A stretch of 64,000 bases of DNA from NCBI GenBank assembly GCA_040755755.1, contig JBFLZW010000016.1, positions 1 through 64,000 of the forward strand. The letters are read 5' to 3'. Made by a program: the position numbers and the translations under genes. This document shows positions 10,644-60,704 of the stretch, in pieces (positions within the stretch are counted from its first letter, which is position 1; each line of letters begins with the position of its first letter). The notes under the pieces were generated by a model. It was not told where the DNA came from, ran no database searches, and worked only from the letters and a program-made list of their open reading frames with translations. The DNA comes from a bacterium. Its GTDB lineage: Bacteria; SZUA-182; DTGQ01.

Positions 10644-11900
10644 ATGCCCATGACCATAGCCGAAAAAATTTTGAGTGAAAAGAGCGGCTGTGAGGCCAGG
10701 AGCGGACGGATTGTCGTCTGCGCCATCTCCTGGGCCATTGCTCAGGACGGGACCGGACCGCTCGCCATCCGGCGGCTGCAGGATGCGGGACTCACCAGGG
10801 TTTTCGATCCGAAAAGGGTCATCTTCTTCATTGACCACGCGGCACCAAGCCCCCGGAAGGAACTATCCAATGCACACCTCCAGATCCGCTCCTTTGCCCG
10901 GGAAACCGGGGCCATTGTTTCCGACATTCAGGAAGGGGTCTGCCACCAGCGGATGGTTGAAGACTTCATCAGTCCGGGAGACCTTCTGATCGGTGCCGAT
11001 TCCCATACCTGCACCTCCGGTGCTCTGGGAGCCTTCTCCACCGGCATGGGCTCTACGGATGTGGCTATTGGCATGGCTCTTGGCAAGGTCTGGCTCAAGG
11101 TTCCCCCAACCATCAGAATTGAAGTCAGTGGAGCATTCCGGCCCGGCGTATATGCCAAGGATTTGATTCTCTCCGTAATCGGCCAACTCACCGCAGATGG
11201 CGCTACCTACAAGGCCCTGGAATTTGGCGGACCGGCCATCTCGGGCATGAGCATGTCAGAGCGGTTCACCCTCTGTAATATGGCGGTTGAGGCTGGAGCC
11301 AAAACCGGCCTGATCGCCACTGATGAAATCACCCGCGATTATCTGATGAAGCAGGGCAGAGGAGATCGGTTCCGCGAAATTGCCCCGGATCCCGGGGCTG
11401 AATACGAACAGGTTCTCACCATTCAGGCCGGGGACCTGGAACCCATGATCGCCCTTCCTCATACGGTGGACAATGTCAAGCCTGTCCGGCAGGTTGCCGG
11501 AACCAAAATCCACCAGGTCTTTATCGGGACCTGCACCAATGGACGACTGGACGACCTTGAAATCGCCGCCAAAATCCTCGACGGGCGGAAGGTCGCTCCG
11601 GGAGTGCGGCTCATCGTGACTCCGGCATCAAAAGCTATTTACCTCCAAGCCCTGCAGAGCGGCCTTATCGAAAAGCTCATCAGGGCTGGAGCTGCCGTAA
11701 CCAGCACCGGCTGCGGCCCGTGCGTGGGGATACATCAGGGGATTCTCGGCGACGGCGAGGCCTGCCTCAGCACTCAGAACCGGAATTTTCTGGGGAGAAT
11801 GGGCAATCCGGACGGATTTATCTACCTGTCTTCACCCGCTACGGCTGCCTGCTCAGCCTTAAAGGGTGAAATCGCCGATCCCAGAGAGATAGTGAAATAA
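10644..11900 (+). CDS. leuC: 3-isopropylmalate dehydratase / homoaconitase-type large subunit
   Basis: A 418-residue aconitase-family large subunit of the short, archaeal-like LeuC/HacA type. It begins TIAEKIL and carries the three [4Fe-4S] cysteines at C297 (GTCTNGR) and C357/C360 (GCGPC), plus GADSHTCTSG near residues 117-126. With the small subunit it would move a hydroxyl group between neighbouring carbons of 2-isopropylmalate in leucine synthesis. The small subunit gene follows after 18 bases. This subfamily also includes homoaconitase and other acid isomerases, so the substrate is not certain. No leuA or leuB is in the window to confirm a leucine role. An AAGGAAG precedes the ATG at 10644; the ATG two codons later is an alternative. 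Confidence 0.88.
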   Translation: MPMTIAEKILSEKSGCEARSGRIVVCAISWAIAQDGTGPLAIRRLQDAGLTRVFDPKRVIFFIDHAAPSPRKELSNAHLQIRSFARETGAIVSDIQEGVCHQRMVEDFISPGDLLIGADSHTCTSGALGAFSTGMGSTDVAIGMALGKVWLKVPPTIRIEVSGAFRPGVYAKDLILSVIGQLTADGATYKALEFGGPAISGMSMSERFTLCNMAVEAGAKTGLIATDEITRDYLMKQGRGDRFREIAPDPGAEYEQVLTIQAGDLEPMIALPHTVDNVKPVRQVAGTKIHQVFIGTCTNGRLDDLEIAAKILDGRKVAPGVRLIVTPASKAIYLQALQSGLIEKLIRAGAAVTSTGCGPCVGIHQGILGDGEACLSTQNRNFLGRMGNPDGFIYLSSPATAACSALKGEIADPREIVK

Positions 11901-11918
11901 CAGGAGAGAGGTAACTCA

Positions 11919-12419
11919 ATGATTCTAGAAGGACATGCTAAAAAATTCGGAGATAATATCAGTACAGACCTGATTGCTCCCGGAAGGCTCTTCCACCTTC
12001 GGAATAACCTGCCGGAGCTGGCCAAACATGTTTTAGAGGATGCTGAGCCCAATTTTTATGAAAAGATTCAAAAAGGGGACTTTATTGTCGCCGGACGGAA
12101 TTTCGGTCTGGGTTCAAGCCGCGAACATGCACCGGCAATCATTAAAATTGCCGGGATCGGAGCGGTTCTCGCCCAATCCGTGGCCCGGATTTTCTTTCGC
12201 AATGCCATTAATGTCGGCCTTCCCGTGTTTGAATGCGATACCAGCCGGATTGAGGCTGAAGACCATCTGCGGATCAATGTTTTGCAGGGGACCGTGGAAA
12301 ACCTCACCCAGGGGATATCCCTGCCATTTCATGCCCTCCCGCAGATCATGGTGGATATTTTAAACGACGGAGGCCTGGTGCCTCATATCCAAAAAAATGG
12401 CGGATTTAATCTGGTCTAG
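11919..12419 (+). CDS. leuD: 3-isopropylmalate dehydratase / homoaconitase-type small subunit
   Basis: The 166-residue product is the swivel domain of the aconitase family, with GDNISTDLIAPGR at residues 11-23 and NFGLGSSREHAP near 62-73, which contacts substrate carboxylates. The loop after DLIAPGR reads LFHLR (24-28). In this subfamily that loop helps set substrate choice between isopropylmalate, homoaconitate and related acids. I cannot assign the substrate from this version, so leuD is a provisional name. AGGAGAGAGG before the ATG is a strong ribosome site. It completes the dehydratase with the upstream large subunit. Confidence 0.88.
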   Translation: MILEGHAKKFGDNISTDLIAPGRLFHLRNNLPELAKHVLEDAEPNFYEKIQKGDFIVAGRNFGLGSSREHAPAIIKIAGIGAVLAQSVARIFFRNAINVGLPVFECDTSRIEAEDHLRINVLQGTVENLTQGISLPFHALPQIMVDILNDGGLVPHIQKNGGFNLV

Positions 12420-12451
12420 CCCATGCCAGGGGATTCAAGGAGGCCCTGCCG

Positions 12452-12928
12452 ATGACCGGAAAAGTTGAGTTGTGGATCGCCACCGGCCTTGGCCTTGGGT
12501 ATTCCCCCATTGTCTCCGGGACCGTCGGCAGTCTGGGTGGGGTCGCGCTGTTTGGGCTCCTTCACCTGCTTCCCTGGCATCTGTACCTCATAACCGTAGC
12601 CGGTCTCTTCTTCATGGGTATCTGGGCGGCTGATCGGGCCGAGGCCGTATTCAAAGAGAAGGACAGCGGCTTCATCGTGATCGATGAAATCGTCGGTTTT
12701 CTGATCACGGCATTTTTACTGCCCTGGAACTGGCTCTCGATGACGGCTGCCTTTGTCCTGTTTCGAATCTTCGATATTCTCAAACCCTTCCCCTGGCGAA
12801 GCGCGGAAAAACTGCCGGGAGGATTAGGCATCATGCTGGATGATGCAGGTGTTGGCATATATGCCAACCTGCTTCTCCAGGGAATGCGAGTATGGCTGTG
12901 TCCCAGAATTTGTTTCCCCAGGATTTGA
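12452..12928 (+). CDS. pgpA: phosphatidylglycerophosphatase A
   Basis: A 158-residue membrane protein with three to four hydrophobic segments and the PgpA signatures near the N-terminus (GLGYSPIVSGTVGSL, residues 14-28) and in the middle (VIDEIVGF and a DILKPFPW stretch). PgpA removes phosphate from phosphatidylglycerophosphate at the inner membrane to make phosphatidylglycerol. Length is typical. AGGAGG lies before the ATG. Its last 37 bases overlap the prepilin peptidase gene in another frame, implying coupled translation. Confidence 0.92.
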   Translation: MTGKVELWIATGLGLGYSPIVSGTVGSLGGVALFGLLHLLPWHLYLITVAGLFFMGIWAADRAEAVFKEKDSGFIVIDEIVGFLITAFLLPWNWLSMTAAFVLFRIFDILKPFPWRSAEKLPGGLGIMLDDAGVGIYANLLLQGMRVWLCPRICFPRI

Positions 12929-13725
12929 CCCTGCAATTTCTCAACCTGCCCGCCGGCTTTCTTCCGGTGGTTTTTTTTCTCTTCGGGGCGTGCATCGGAA
13001 GCTTTCTGAATGTCTGCATCTTTCGCCTTCCCCGGAATGAATCGATTGTTTTCCCGGCCTCCCACTGTCCAGCCTGCAATACCAAATTGAAGTCTGCAGA
13101 TAATGTCCCAATCTTCAGTTTCCTGTTTCTCCGGGGGAAGTGCCGCTATTGTCAGACCGCAATCTCCTGGCAGTATCCTATTGTGGAACTGACCACCGGA
13201 ATTCTGTTTGCCCTGGCTGTCATCCGCTTTGGCTTGCAGTGGAATACATTTATTGCTCTTGTCCTGATTCCGGTCAGTCTGGTGGTTTCGGTTATCGATC
13301 TCAAGGTTCAGATCATCCCCAACGTCATCTCCCTGCCGGGAATCGGTCTTGGCCTGGCAGCCAGTCTCCTGCCGGGCTCACCCCTGACCTTTTTCAATGC
13401 CCTGTCGGGCATGCTGATCGGGGGAGGGCTCTTTTACCTGGTGGCGGTGATTAGTAAAGGAGGGATGGGGGGAGGAGATATCAAACTCATTGCCATGTTC
13501 GGGGCTTTTTTGGGCTGGCAAAAATGCCTGCTGACCATTTTCCTGGGCGTTTTACTGGGATCAATAGTCGGTATCGCTCTCATGCTGCTCAAGCGCAAAG
13601 GCCGGAAAGATCCGATTCCCTTTGGCCCGTTCTTGTGCATCGGCGCTCTGATCAGCCTCTTCTACGGCCAGGCCATGATCAACTGGTACCTTCATCTTAC
13701 CATAGGGAAGGCGGGCTTTTGGTAA
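12892..13725 (+). CDS. pilD: prepilin leader peptidase / N-methyltransferase
   Basis: A 277-residue polytopic membrane protein of the PilD/GspO family. The cytosolic loop has two CxxC pairs (CPAC 59-62, CRYC 84-87), the zinc site of the bifunctional type. The catalytic aspartates are D136 (VIDLKVQIIPN) and D196 in GGGDIK. It cuts the short leader of type IV prepilins after Gly and methylates the new N-terminal residue. The likely substrates are the three prepilins at 37-38.5 kb and any further pseudopilins. It overlaps pgpA, so it is separated from the pilus operon, which is common for this gene. Confidence 0.95.
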   Translation: MAVSQNLFPQDLTLQFLNLPAGFLPVVFFLFGACIGSFLNVCIFRLPRNESIVFPASHCPACNTKLKSADNVPIFSFLFLRGKCRYCQTAISWQYPIVELTTGILFALAVIRFGLQWNTFIALVLIPVSLVVSVIDLKVQIIPNVISLPGIGLGLAASLLPGSPLTFFNALSGMLIGGGLFYLVAVISKGGMGGGDIKLIAMFGAFLGWQKCLLTIFLGVLLGSIVGIALMLLKRKGRKDPIPFGPFLCIGALISLFYGQAMINWYLHLTIGKAGFW

Positions 13726-13774: not shown

Positions 13775-14107
13775 ATGATAAAAAGAAACCTCTATCTGCC
13801 TCCTCTGGTGCACGAGCAGCTCGTGCGCTTGTTATCGGCGCAGTCTGCTGTAGAGAGAGTCGTTCTGTTCGGCTCCCGCGCCCGTGGGGATGCAGAGGAG
13901 CGCTCGGACATTGATCTTTCGATTGAGGCACCGGGTGCTTTGCAGCGGCAGTGGCTGGAAATCCTCTTTCGTCTGGAGGAAATCGACACCCTGCTGCCCA
14001 TTCATGCAGTTCGATGGGAAGAGGCATCCGATGTATTGAAGCGACGGATACAGGTGGAGGGAAGGGTATTGTATGAACGATCCACAAGCAGTCCAAAGCG
14101 TTCGTAA
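13775..14107 (+). CDS. MntA-type nucleotidyltransferase antitoxin
   Basis: A 110-residue minimal nucleotidyltransferase with the complete GSx10DxD motif (G33-S34, then D45 and D47). In characterised MntA/HepT pairs this antitoxin adds AMP units to a tyrosine of the HEPN toxin and blocks its RNase activity. GGGAG lies about 9 bases before the ATG. Its end overlaps the HEPN gene by 35 bases, which fixes the pair as one unit and would keep the proteins in balance. The catalytic residues look intact. Confidence 0.9.
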   Translation: MIKRNLYLPPLVHEQLVRLLSAQSAVERVVLFGSRARGDAEERSDIDLSIEAPGALQRQWLEILFRLEEIDTLLPIHAVRWEEASDVLKRRIQVEGRVLYERSTSSPKRS

Positions 14108-16378: not shown

Positions 16379-16759
16379 ATGGCAGAGATAAATATCGGCG
16401 ATATACGAGACTACCTTTTAAAAAGAGAGCGGTCAAGGGCCTGTTCAAGGCAGGAAGAGCGGGATAAAATCGTTTCCGGGCTTCAGGCACTGACCATGAT
16501 CTGGAGAAAGTATCAGCTTGACAGGGTCTTCTTATACGGCTCGCTCGCCGATTTGACTTTTCATCGCGGATCGGATATTGATCTGGCGATTGAGCCGGAG
16601 GTTGGATTTGAAGAGCAGCTCAGGCTCTATTCTGAAATTAACCGGCATTTTAAACGGGAAGTCGATGTAAGATTATTAAAGGAATTACCTTTTTCCGAGA
16701 AGGTGATACGAGAAGGTATTGTCGTGTATGAAAGAGAGAATAGCCATACTGAAAAGTGA
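16379..16759 (+). CDS. MntA-type nucleotidyltransferase antitoxin (second copy)
   Basis: A 126-residue minimal nucleotidyltransferase with an intact GSx10DxD motif (G54-S55, D66, D68) after an N-terminal helical extension of about 45 residues. The frame is open further upstream, but GGGAGAG placed about 7 bases before the ATG at 16379 supports this start. It overlaps the following HEPN gene by 32 bases. It differs clearly in sequence from the pair at 13.8 kb, so the two modules are not a recent duplication. Role as antitoxin by adenylylating its HEPN partner is inferred from the family. Confidence 0.88.
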   Translation: MAEINIGDIRDYLLKRERSRACSRQEERDKIVSGLQALTMIWRKYQLDRVFLYGSLADLTFHRGSDIDLAIEPEVGFEEQLRLYSEINRHFKREVDVRLLKELPFSEKVIREGIVVYERENSHTEK

Positions 16760-58570: not shown

Positions 58571-59278
58571 TTATCTCCTCACGATAAGGAGTGACATATA
58601 GTCCACTTTGCTCCCCACCAGGGGAGAAAGATCATGGATAATCCTTTCCTGATCCGTGCTGATCCGCTGAAACAGGGTAGCCCTGGTGAGCAGATCCATT
58701 TCTTTGAGCATATCATACACCTGATCGAAAACCCGGCTTACTTTGAGCAGCACCACGGCATCAAAATCCTCCAGGGCCGTTCGCACCCTTTCACGGTCTG
58801 CAGTAGCCGGAAGGACCGCAACCCGCTCATCTGCTTTGCCGAGGGGAAGAGATGCCGCCGCAGCACAGGCACTGAGAGAGGATATTCCCGGCACAAACCG
58901 CACCTCGATGTGCGGATATTTCTCCTGCATGATTTCAAATAAATAGATAAACGTGGAGTAGAGGGTCACGTCACCAATGGAGATAAAGGCAACATCCTTT
59001 CCCTGGTCAAGATGAGCAACGATCCTGTTTATGGCTTCCTGCCAGGATACGCCAGGCGTTCGAGGTTCGTAGCTCATGGGGAAGAGAAGCTCGATTTTTT
59101 CCTTCCCGGCAAGACTCATGGCCTGCTCCAGGGTGGAAAGAGCTATGCTCCGCTCTCCCTTACGGGATACCGGATAAGCGATAATCCCGGTACGATGGAG
59201 AATCCGCAAGCCCCTGAGGGTGATAAGTTCCGGGTCTCCCGGCCCGATGCCGATACCATAAAGAATTCCTTTGGTCAT
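58571..59278 (-). CDS. cbiL: precorrin-2 / cobalt-factor II C20-methyltransferase CbiL/CobI
   Basis: A 235-residue methylase. The N-terminus (TKGILYGIGIGPGDPELITL) fits the CbiL/CobI branch, with ISIGDVTLYSTF near residue 92. It adds the C20 methyl early in the pathway. The start is set at 59278, with GGAGAAG 8 bases before; the open frame runs to 59338 but lacks a site. It follows the MNT remnant by 56 bases, and is normally directly adjacent to a corrin gene. Confidence 0.94.
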   Translation of the reverse strand: MTKGILYGIGIGPGDPELITLRGLRILHRTGIIAYPVSRKGERSIALSTLEQAMSLAGKEKIELLFPMSYEPRTPGVSWQEAINRIVAHLDQGKDVAFISIGDVTLYSTFIYLFEIMQEKYPHIEVRFVPGISSLSACAAAASLPLGKADERVAVLPATADRERVRTALEDFDAVVLLKVSRVFDQVYDMLKEMDLLTRATLFQRISTDQERIIHDLSPLVGSKVDYMSLLIVRR

Positions 59279-59334
59279 TTTGCTTCTTCTCCGGGTAACT
59301 TGTATGTTTAACCGTGGCCAGGCAGCCCATTGGC

Positions 59335-59463
59335 TCAATGATCGTTCACTCTTTTACCACGAGCCTGAGAACCAAAAAGCACTACCTGTACCGGTTGGTC
59401 GCCGTAAAGTGCTTCAAGGTGTCGGTGGAACTCAGTAACAATAGTTTCGATTTTAGGATTCAC
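59335..59463 (-). pseudogene. truncated MNT nucleotidyltransferase remnant, 42 codons
   Basis: The GTG at 59463 overlaps the cbiET stop as GTGA and has AAGGAGG 8 bases before it, an excellent coupled start. The 42-residue product begins NPKIETIVTEFHRHLEALYG and reaches VVLFGSQARGKRVNDH, then stops. This is the N-terminal third of a minimal nucleotidyltransferase. In intact members GS is followed by ten residues and DxD; here exactly ten residues are present and the stop replaces the catalytic Asp. The rest of the gene is gone. It is probably a decayed gene or the last part of an old insertion, but it is likely still translated. Confidence 0.8.
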
Positions 59464-60704
59464 AACTTATCCTCCTTTTCCCCAACCAGAATATACACCG
59501 GAGGCGAGGGCTCCATGATGGTTAATCCGGCCAGGTCTTTCTTCCGGGAAATCTGGATAGCTGTCATATCAAAATACCCGGCCTGTGAGCGGAGAAACTC
59601 TTTGGCTATGGTCAGGCTCTCCAGGGTGACAGCGTTCACTGCTATCCGCCCGCCCTTTTTCAGTCTCTGCCAGCAGGTTTCCAAGTTAGGGCCAAGGGAC
59701 CGGCCGCTTCCGCCGAGGAAAATCCGGTCAGGATCAGGCAAATCGGTCAGGATGCCGGGGGCTTCACCCGGAATAACCTCAAGATTCAGAACCTGAAACC
59801 TGCTGCGGTTTTTGATGGTATTTTCCACCTCGGCAGGCTTTTTTTCAATAGCCAGGATGAGGCCGGATCGAATAAACCGTGCAGCCTCTATCGAGACCGA
59901 GCCGCTTCCAGCCCCGATATCCCAAAAGATTGAATCCTCCTGCGGTCTCAAGTGCGAAAGCACTGCCGCTCTGATTTCGCGCTTGGTAATCAGGCCGGCC
60001 GTATGGAAGAACTCCTCTTCCGGCAGACCGGGAGCAGGATGCAGGCTCAAAGGGCTCTCAGGGGCCGCTTTCACCAACAGGAGGATATTGAGCGGCTCAC
60101 TCTCCCTTGCTGCAAGGTCCTGGAGTGTACCTTGAGTCATTTTCTCATGCTCACAGCCAAGATTTTCGAACAGAAAATAATGCCCGTCCCGGGCTGCTCC
60201 CCGGTCCAGCAGGAAGGAAGCAATCCGGGCCGGGGTATTGGAGTTGTCAGTAAAAATGCCGATTTTTTTCTCCGGCCAGACTTTGGCCAGATGATGAATC
60301 GGCCTTCCATGCAGGCTGATCAGGGCAGCATCATGCCAGGGAATCCTGGCTTTGGCGAAAGCCCACTGCATTGAGCTTACAGCCGGGTGAATCGTAACCT
60401 CCTGCGGATCAACGTGCTGCAGCAGGGTGGAAGCAATGCCAAAAAAATTCGGGTCACCCGAAGCCAGGACGACCACTCTTTGCCCCCGGTATGATTTTAC
60501 CTGATTAATCAGGAAATCAAGGTCCCCTTTCAGGAACAGCCTTTGCCCTCCAAAGCCTGGAAAAAGCTCCTGAAGCCGTGGTGCCCCAGCCAAAAGCATA
60601 GTATCATCAGGTAAATGAGGAAGAAAGGCAGGGTGGTTAAAGACATCCTGTGCCGGGCAGGGGCTGATACCCACAATGTGCAGCCACTCATGCAGTGCCT
60701 TCAT
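59460..60704 (-). CDS. cbiET: fused precorrin-6B C5,15-methyltransferase / C12-decarboxylase CbiET (CobL)
   Basis: A 414-residue fusion. The N-terminal CbiE methylase (about 1-210) has LHIVGISPCP (7-16) and LASGDPNFFG (about 75-84). The C-terminal CbiT domain (about 220-405) has the SAM motif DIGAGSGSVSIEAA (about 255-268). It methylates C5 and C15 and decarboxylates the C12 acetate. It overlaps cbiD as ATGA and the MNT remnant as GTGA. Confidence 0.95.
   Translation of the reverse strand: MKALHEWLHIVGISPCPAQDVFNHPAFLPHLPDDTMLLAGAPRLQELFPGFGGQRLFLKGDLDFLINQVKSYRGQRVVVLASGDPNFFGIASTLLQHVDPQEVTIHPAVSSMQWAFAKARIPWHDAALISLHGRPIHHLAKVWPEKKIGIFTDNSNTPARIASFLLDRGAARDGHYFLFENLGCEHEKMTQGTLQDLAARESEPLNILLLVKAAPESPLSLHPAPGLPEEEFFHTAGLITKREIRAAVLSHLRPQEDSIFWDIGAGSGSVSIEAARFIRSGLILAIEKKPAEVENTIKNRSRFQVLNLEVIPGEAPGILTDLPDPDRIFLGGSGRSLGPNLETCWQRLKKGGRIAVNAVTLESLTIAKEFLRSQAGYFDMTAIQISRKKDLAGLTIMEPSPPVYILVGEKEDKL

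Follow-up and report, generated by a model that had tools for sequence, protein, structure and literature searches.

A truncated MNT antitoxin gene between cbiET and cbiL is very likely a relic of insertion and deletion in a bacterial cobalamin operon

A short open frame between cbiET and cbiL in a bacterial cobalamin gene cluster is very likely what remains of an MNT antitoxin gene that was inserted after cbiET and later largely deleted, and would thus be an ordinary gene relic. We infer the order of these two events, the former presence of a HEPN partner and the lack of function. The frame lies on the minus strand of the window (the whole stretch of 64,000 nucleotides analysed here), starts with GTG at 59463, ends with TGA at 59335 and has a product of 42 amino acids, MNPKIETIVTEFHRHLEALYGDQPVQVVLFGSQARGKRVNDH, as read from the list of open reading frames and the sequence. 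The features of the region are as follows.

59335..59463, minus strand: 42-codon frame (GTG to TGA) with an MNT N-terminal remnant (list of open reading frames, sequence)
59356..59463, minus strand: segment of demonstrable MNT homology, codons 1-36, to GSQARG (68% amino-acid and 73% DNA identity to G000:C1:237426-237548)
59338..59355, minus strand: KRVNDH, six codons in which the closest MNT shows no detectable homology (sequence, identity comparison)
59471..59477, minus strand: AAGGAGG ribosome-binding site within the last cbiET codons (sequence)
59460..59463, minus strand: GTGA, the 4 nt in which the cbiET stop and the start of the fragment overlap (sequence)
59279..59334, minus strand: 56-nt spacer from the fragment stop to the cbiL ATG (frame search, RNA fold)
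59287..59292, minus strand: GGAGAA, the ribosome-binding site of cbiL itself (sequence; the same-genus genome G001 likewise has GGAGAA a short distance ahead of cbiL)
59460..60704, minus strand: cbiET, upstream gene (CbiE TIGR02467 and CbiT TIGR02469, both above cut-off)
58571..59278, minus strand: cbiL, downstream gene (TIGR01467, 237.6 bits against a cut-off of 163)

The cobalamin cluster is colinear on the minus strand, in the order cbiN-cbiQ-cbiO-cbiD-cbiET-[fragment]-cbiL-cobO-cbiF-cbiG-cbiH-cbiA-cobQ; the names of cbiET and cbiL were checked against NCBIfam, and those of the other genes were assigned from sequence. The AAGGAGG site is located 7 nt upstream of the GTG of the fragment, the stop codon of cbiET occupies 59462-59460, and a TTG in the reading frame of cbiL overlaps the TGA of the fragment. 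The first-pass annotation had described a 42-codon frame with a GTGA overlap and AAGGAGG, ending at the Asp position of the motif GSx10DxD. Both descriptions were confirmed: codons 31-32 encode GS, and ten further residues separate it from the TGA.

Sequence comparison shows that codons 1 to 36 or 37 encode a genuine MNT N-terminus, with homology beyond chance. A search of the genome revealed that residues 1-37 were 68% identical to a full-length MNT protein of 106 amino acids at C1:237438 (E = 4.9e-13), and the DNA match to this paralogue (73% over 120 bases, E = 8.7e-14) ended at 59356. The Pfam PF01909 score of the fragment was 14.1 bits, below the cut-off of 21, whereas the full paralogue scored 40.3. 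Differences between the two were mostly at third positions, with identities of 28/37, 34/37 and 19/37 at codon positions 1, 2 and 3, and the NG86 estimates were 1.13 for dS and 0.19 for dN. Thus, the two copies parted long ago and were both under protein selection for most of the time since, and the fragment cannot have been copied recently from the C1:237438 paralogue.

The point at which homology ends is important for the interpretation of the stop. Per 21 bases, 11-18 were identical to the paralogue as far as the GSQARG codons, and 3-7 beyond them. In all six related proteins read across the x10 loop, the residue preceding the Asp is Ser, whereas the fragment has His at this site. KRVNDH, the last six codons, is on this comparison not demonstrably MNT, although the x10 loop varies within the family. 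It had been suggested that such a clean end argues against random decay, an argument that is not upheld here, because detectable homology breaks about six codons before the stop, at no special place. Since detectable homology ends earlier, the position of the stop is most simply accidental: its coincidence with the Asp is probably due to chance, the TGA being the first stop that the joined sequence happens to contain.

The 56 nt before cbiL were searched in all frames and hold neither MNT nor HEPN remains, HEPN scores there being at background level. Because no MNT remains are present in any frame, the rest of the gene is missing and not frame-shifted. A frameshift or single-base error was rejected as an explanation for the short frame, as the other frames hold no MNT motif. 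The origin of the joined DNA was also considered. The 74-nt tail was not recognisable as a repeat, with no significant match elsewhere in the genome, nor did it significantly match the cbiL leader of G001 as a possible ancestral leader (shuffle share 0.11), with only GGAGAA alike by eye. The borders showed no short direct repeats of the kind that a deletion or insertion may leave as a scar; no Rfam element was detected at the junction, and the spacer contained no stable RNA fold beyond those of shuffled sequences.

Comparison with relatives covered a phylum with only nine genomes in the collection, of which G001 alone belongs to the same genus; the contig scan for CbiL returned only four relatives. 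In G005 and G006, the two members of the same class with a readable junction, cbiE and cbiL are almost adjacent, which indicates that the 182-nt insert in the window is derived. G001 keeps the same cobalamin gene order on two contigs interrupted at the cbiET-cbiL junction, and other DNA stands there in place of the fragment, at variance with a conserved coupling spacer. A search of G001 for the fragment gave no hit at E <= 1; elsewhere in the phylum there was no orthologue, and the matches were weak, the best having E 0.006 and 38% identity. The first-pass annotation had proposed a search for a full MNT gene at the same place in the operon of relatives; none was found, and the lack of such an intermediate speaks against a relic. 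Viral contigs contained no relative of the full-length paralogue, and nothing relevant linking HEPN/MNT with cobalamin operons was found in the literature by title or abstract.

Both contig ends at the junction in G001 have features of their own. One of the two contigs (G001:C87, L073) carries a CRISPR-like array at 11156-13034, with 14 copies of a repeat of approximately 37 nt, GTCGCAATCCCTTAATCATCAGGTCATGGATTTCTAC, plus two outlying repeats. The cbiET stop codon is where the first repeat starts, and about 1.3 kb of contig remain beyond cbiET. This repeat (25-nt core, up to 2 mismatches) was absent from the genome of the window. Upstream of cbiL, the contig end (L018 2210-2600; G001:C10 33795-34185) is a multicopy sequence, whose outermost 75-90 bases recur at at least 40 places, many of them contig ends.

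Broken MNT/HEPN modules are ordinary in the genome of the window. PF01909 matches it at 39 places, in one case across an internal stop, and of its 22 HEPN matches several are split or contain internal stops. Two more MNT-type frames, at 13820-14032 and 16508-16705 of the window, are among the 39 PF01909 matches and have no internal stops. The locus of the closest MNT (L010 1501-1985; G000:C1 about 237438-237922) has a full MNT gene and then a HEPN frame of only 56 codons. Upstream lies a gene that matches the XcyI restriction endonuclease (PF09571), which places a module in partial decay next to a restriction gene. The homologue of this HEPN gene on a Synechocystis plasmid has about 126 codons.

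On the basis of these results, the most likely history of the fragment is as follows. An MNT gene, probably with a HEPN toxin partner, would have come to sit directly after cbiET. A deletion would then have removed the DNA from approximately codon 37 of MNT to just before cbiL, with its right end before the GGAGAA of cbiL. A good Shine-Dalgarno sequence still precedes the stub, and a 42-amino-acid peptide may be made from it. At least part of this ribosome site belongs to the end of cbiET, and the start-codon overlap might have arisen if the joint fell at a TGA that both the cbiET stop and the MNT start, (A)TGA, contain. The sequence GGGGAAAAGGA at the end of cbiET is common to G001, and the C-terminus of CbiET reads GEKEDKL here and GEKDL in G001. 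That the fragment is a relic of an inserted toxin-antitoxin gene, an option already raised by the first-pass annotation, is well supported by the close paralogue, the sharp loss of homology, the absence of the remainder, the lack of a copy in relatives, the near-adjacent cbiE and cbiL of G005 and G006, the many such genes and broken copies in the genome, and the change L24P at a site that is otherwise Leu. On the other hand, the frame joins the cbiET stop and the ribosome site with a precision that is neat for an accident, and this counts against a relic.

Neither an internal stop nor a frameshift interrupts the fragment, and its pN/pS relative to the paralogue was 0.29 (bootstrap 0.15-0.55). 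Its pN to outgroup MNTs (0.25, 0.26, 0.36 and 0.36) was only slightly higher than that of the intact paralogue (0.19, 0.20, 0.34 and 0.33). Such little decay would fit a truncation that is recent relative to the age of the paralogue, and would fit retained function as well. It seems improbable that the 42 codons have been retained, whether for coupling or as a small peptide of MNT origin adopted by the cobalamin operon. Taken separately, an unlikely explanation is that the fragment is a spacer kept because its translation carries ribosomes from cbiET to cbiL and lessens polarity. The GTGA overlap and AAGGAGG would provide a coupled start, and the in-frame stop lies 56 nt before cbiL, with the overlapping TTG in the cbiL frame; however, a GGAG site belongs to cbiL itself, the spacer is missing from G005 and G006, and no RNA structure stronger than in shuffled sequences would have to be opened. 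Coupling to cbiL is therefore possible in principle but not needed, given the ribosome site of cbiL itself and the two spacer-free relatives. Very unlikely, judging from the sequence, is a functional small protein in which the MNT N-terminus has been kept for binding, for example to a HEPN toxin. A low pN/pS and a good translation start would suit such a protein, but no orthologue was found anywhere searched, the operon contains no HEPN gene, nothing is left beyond the N-terminal third, which reaches as far as the GS loop, and the fragment has L24P at a site occupied by Leu in 8/8 homologues compared. Both options had been raised in the first-pass annotation, and no positive sign of either was found: the separate cbiL site, the spacer-free relatives and the missing orthologue speak against them. 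That an intact MNT gene was misassembled or misread is scarcely credible even for a draft genome of 88 contigs, and the idea that a corrected read would restore the full gene was ruled against, since the missing two thirds occur in no frame, a base error could not hide about 200 bases, and a misjoin would also have to place cbiL directly behind the stub, cbiET-cbiL being the expected gene order.

Returning to an MNT gene relic, the 42-codon frame is best annotated as an MNT remnant and not as a gene, which matters little beyond annotation. It represents a small example of toxin-antitoxin turnover scarring a metabolic operon and would be of wider interest only if the peptide or its translation affects cbiL.

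Among known systems, the fragment is most similar to the MntA-like MNT antitoxins (HEPN-MNT, type VII toxin-antitoxin systems; PF01909; nearest G000:C1:237438), with which it shares sequence homology over the N-terminal 36-37 residues, including the active-site GS. The active-site motif of MntA is GSX10DXD, and in Shewanella oneidensis mutating either GS or both Asp residues of MntA abolished the modification of HepT (PMC7641770). In contrast to these antitoxins, the fragment retains GS but lacks DXD, with a stop at the first Asp position, lacks the C-terminal two thirds, scores below the PF01909 cut-off and is flanked by cbiET and cbiL of a cobalamin operon in place of an adjoining HEPN gene with RX4HXY. 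Having no catalytic Asp pair and missing most of the fold, it cannot act as an adenylyltransferase and is expected to be without function; adenylylation and toxin neutralisation would not be expected from such a sequence. The MNT protein of plasmid pSYLA of Synechocystis sp. PCC 6714 (D082_RS16335) belongs to the same subfamily by sequence, with 52% identity to the full-length paralogue, but differs from the fragment in being a complete gene with a complete HEPN partner, and adjoins the BREX gene pglZ. A frameshifted MNT gene in an unrelated genome (G029:C36, L088) resembles the fragment in that its open frame stops shortly after the GS loop; there, however, the SDIDL part follows in another frame, as in an ordinary frameshift pseudogene, whereas the rest of the gene from which the fragment derives appears to have been deleted.
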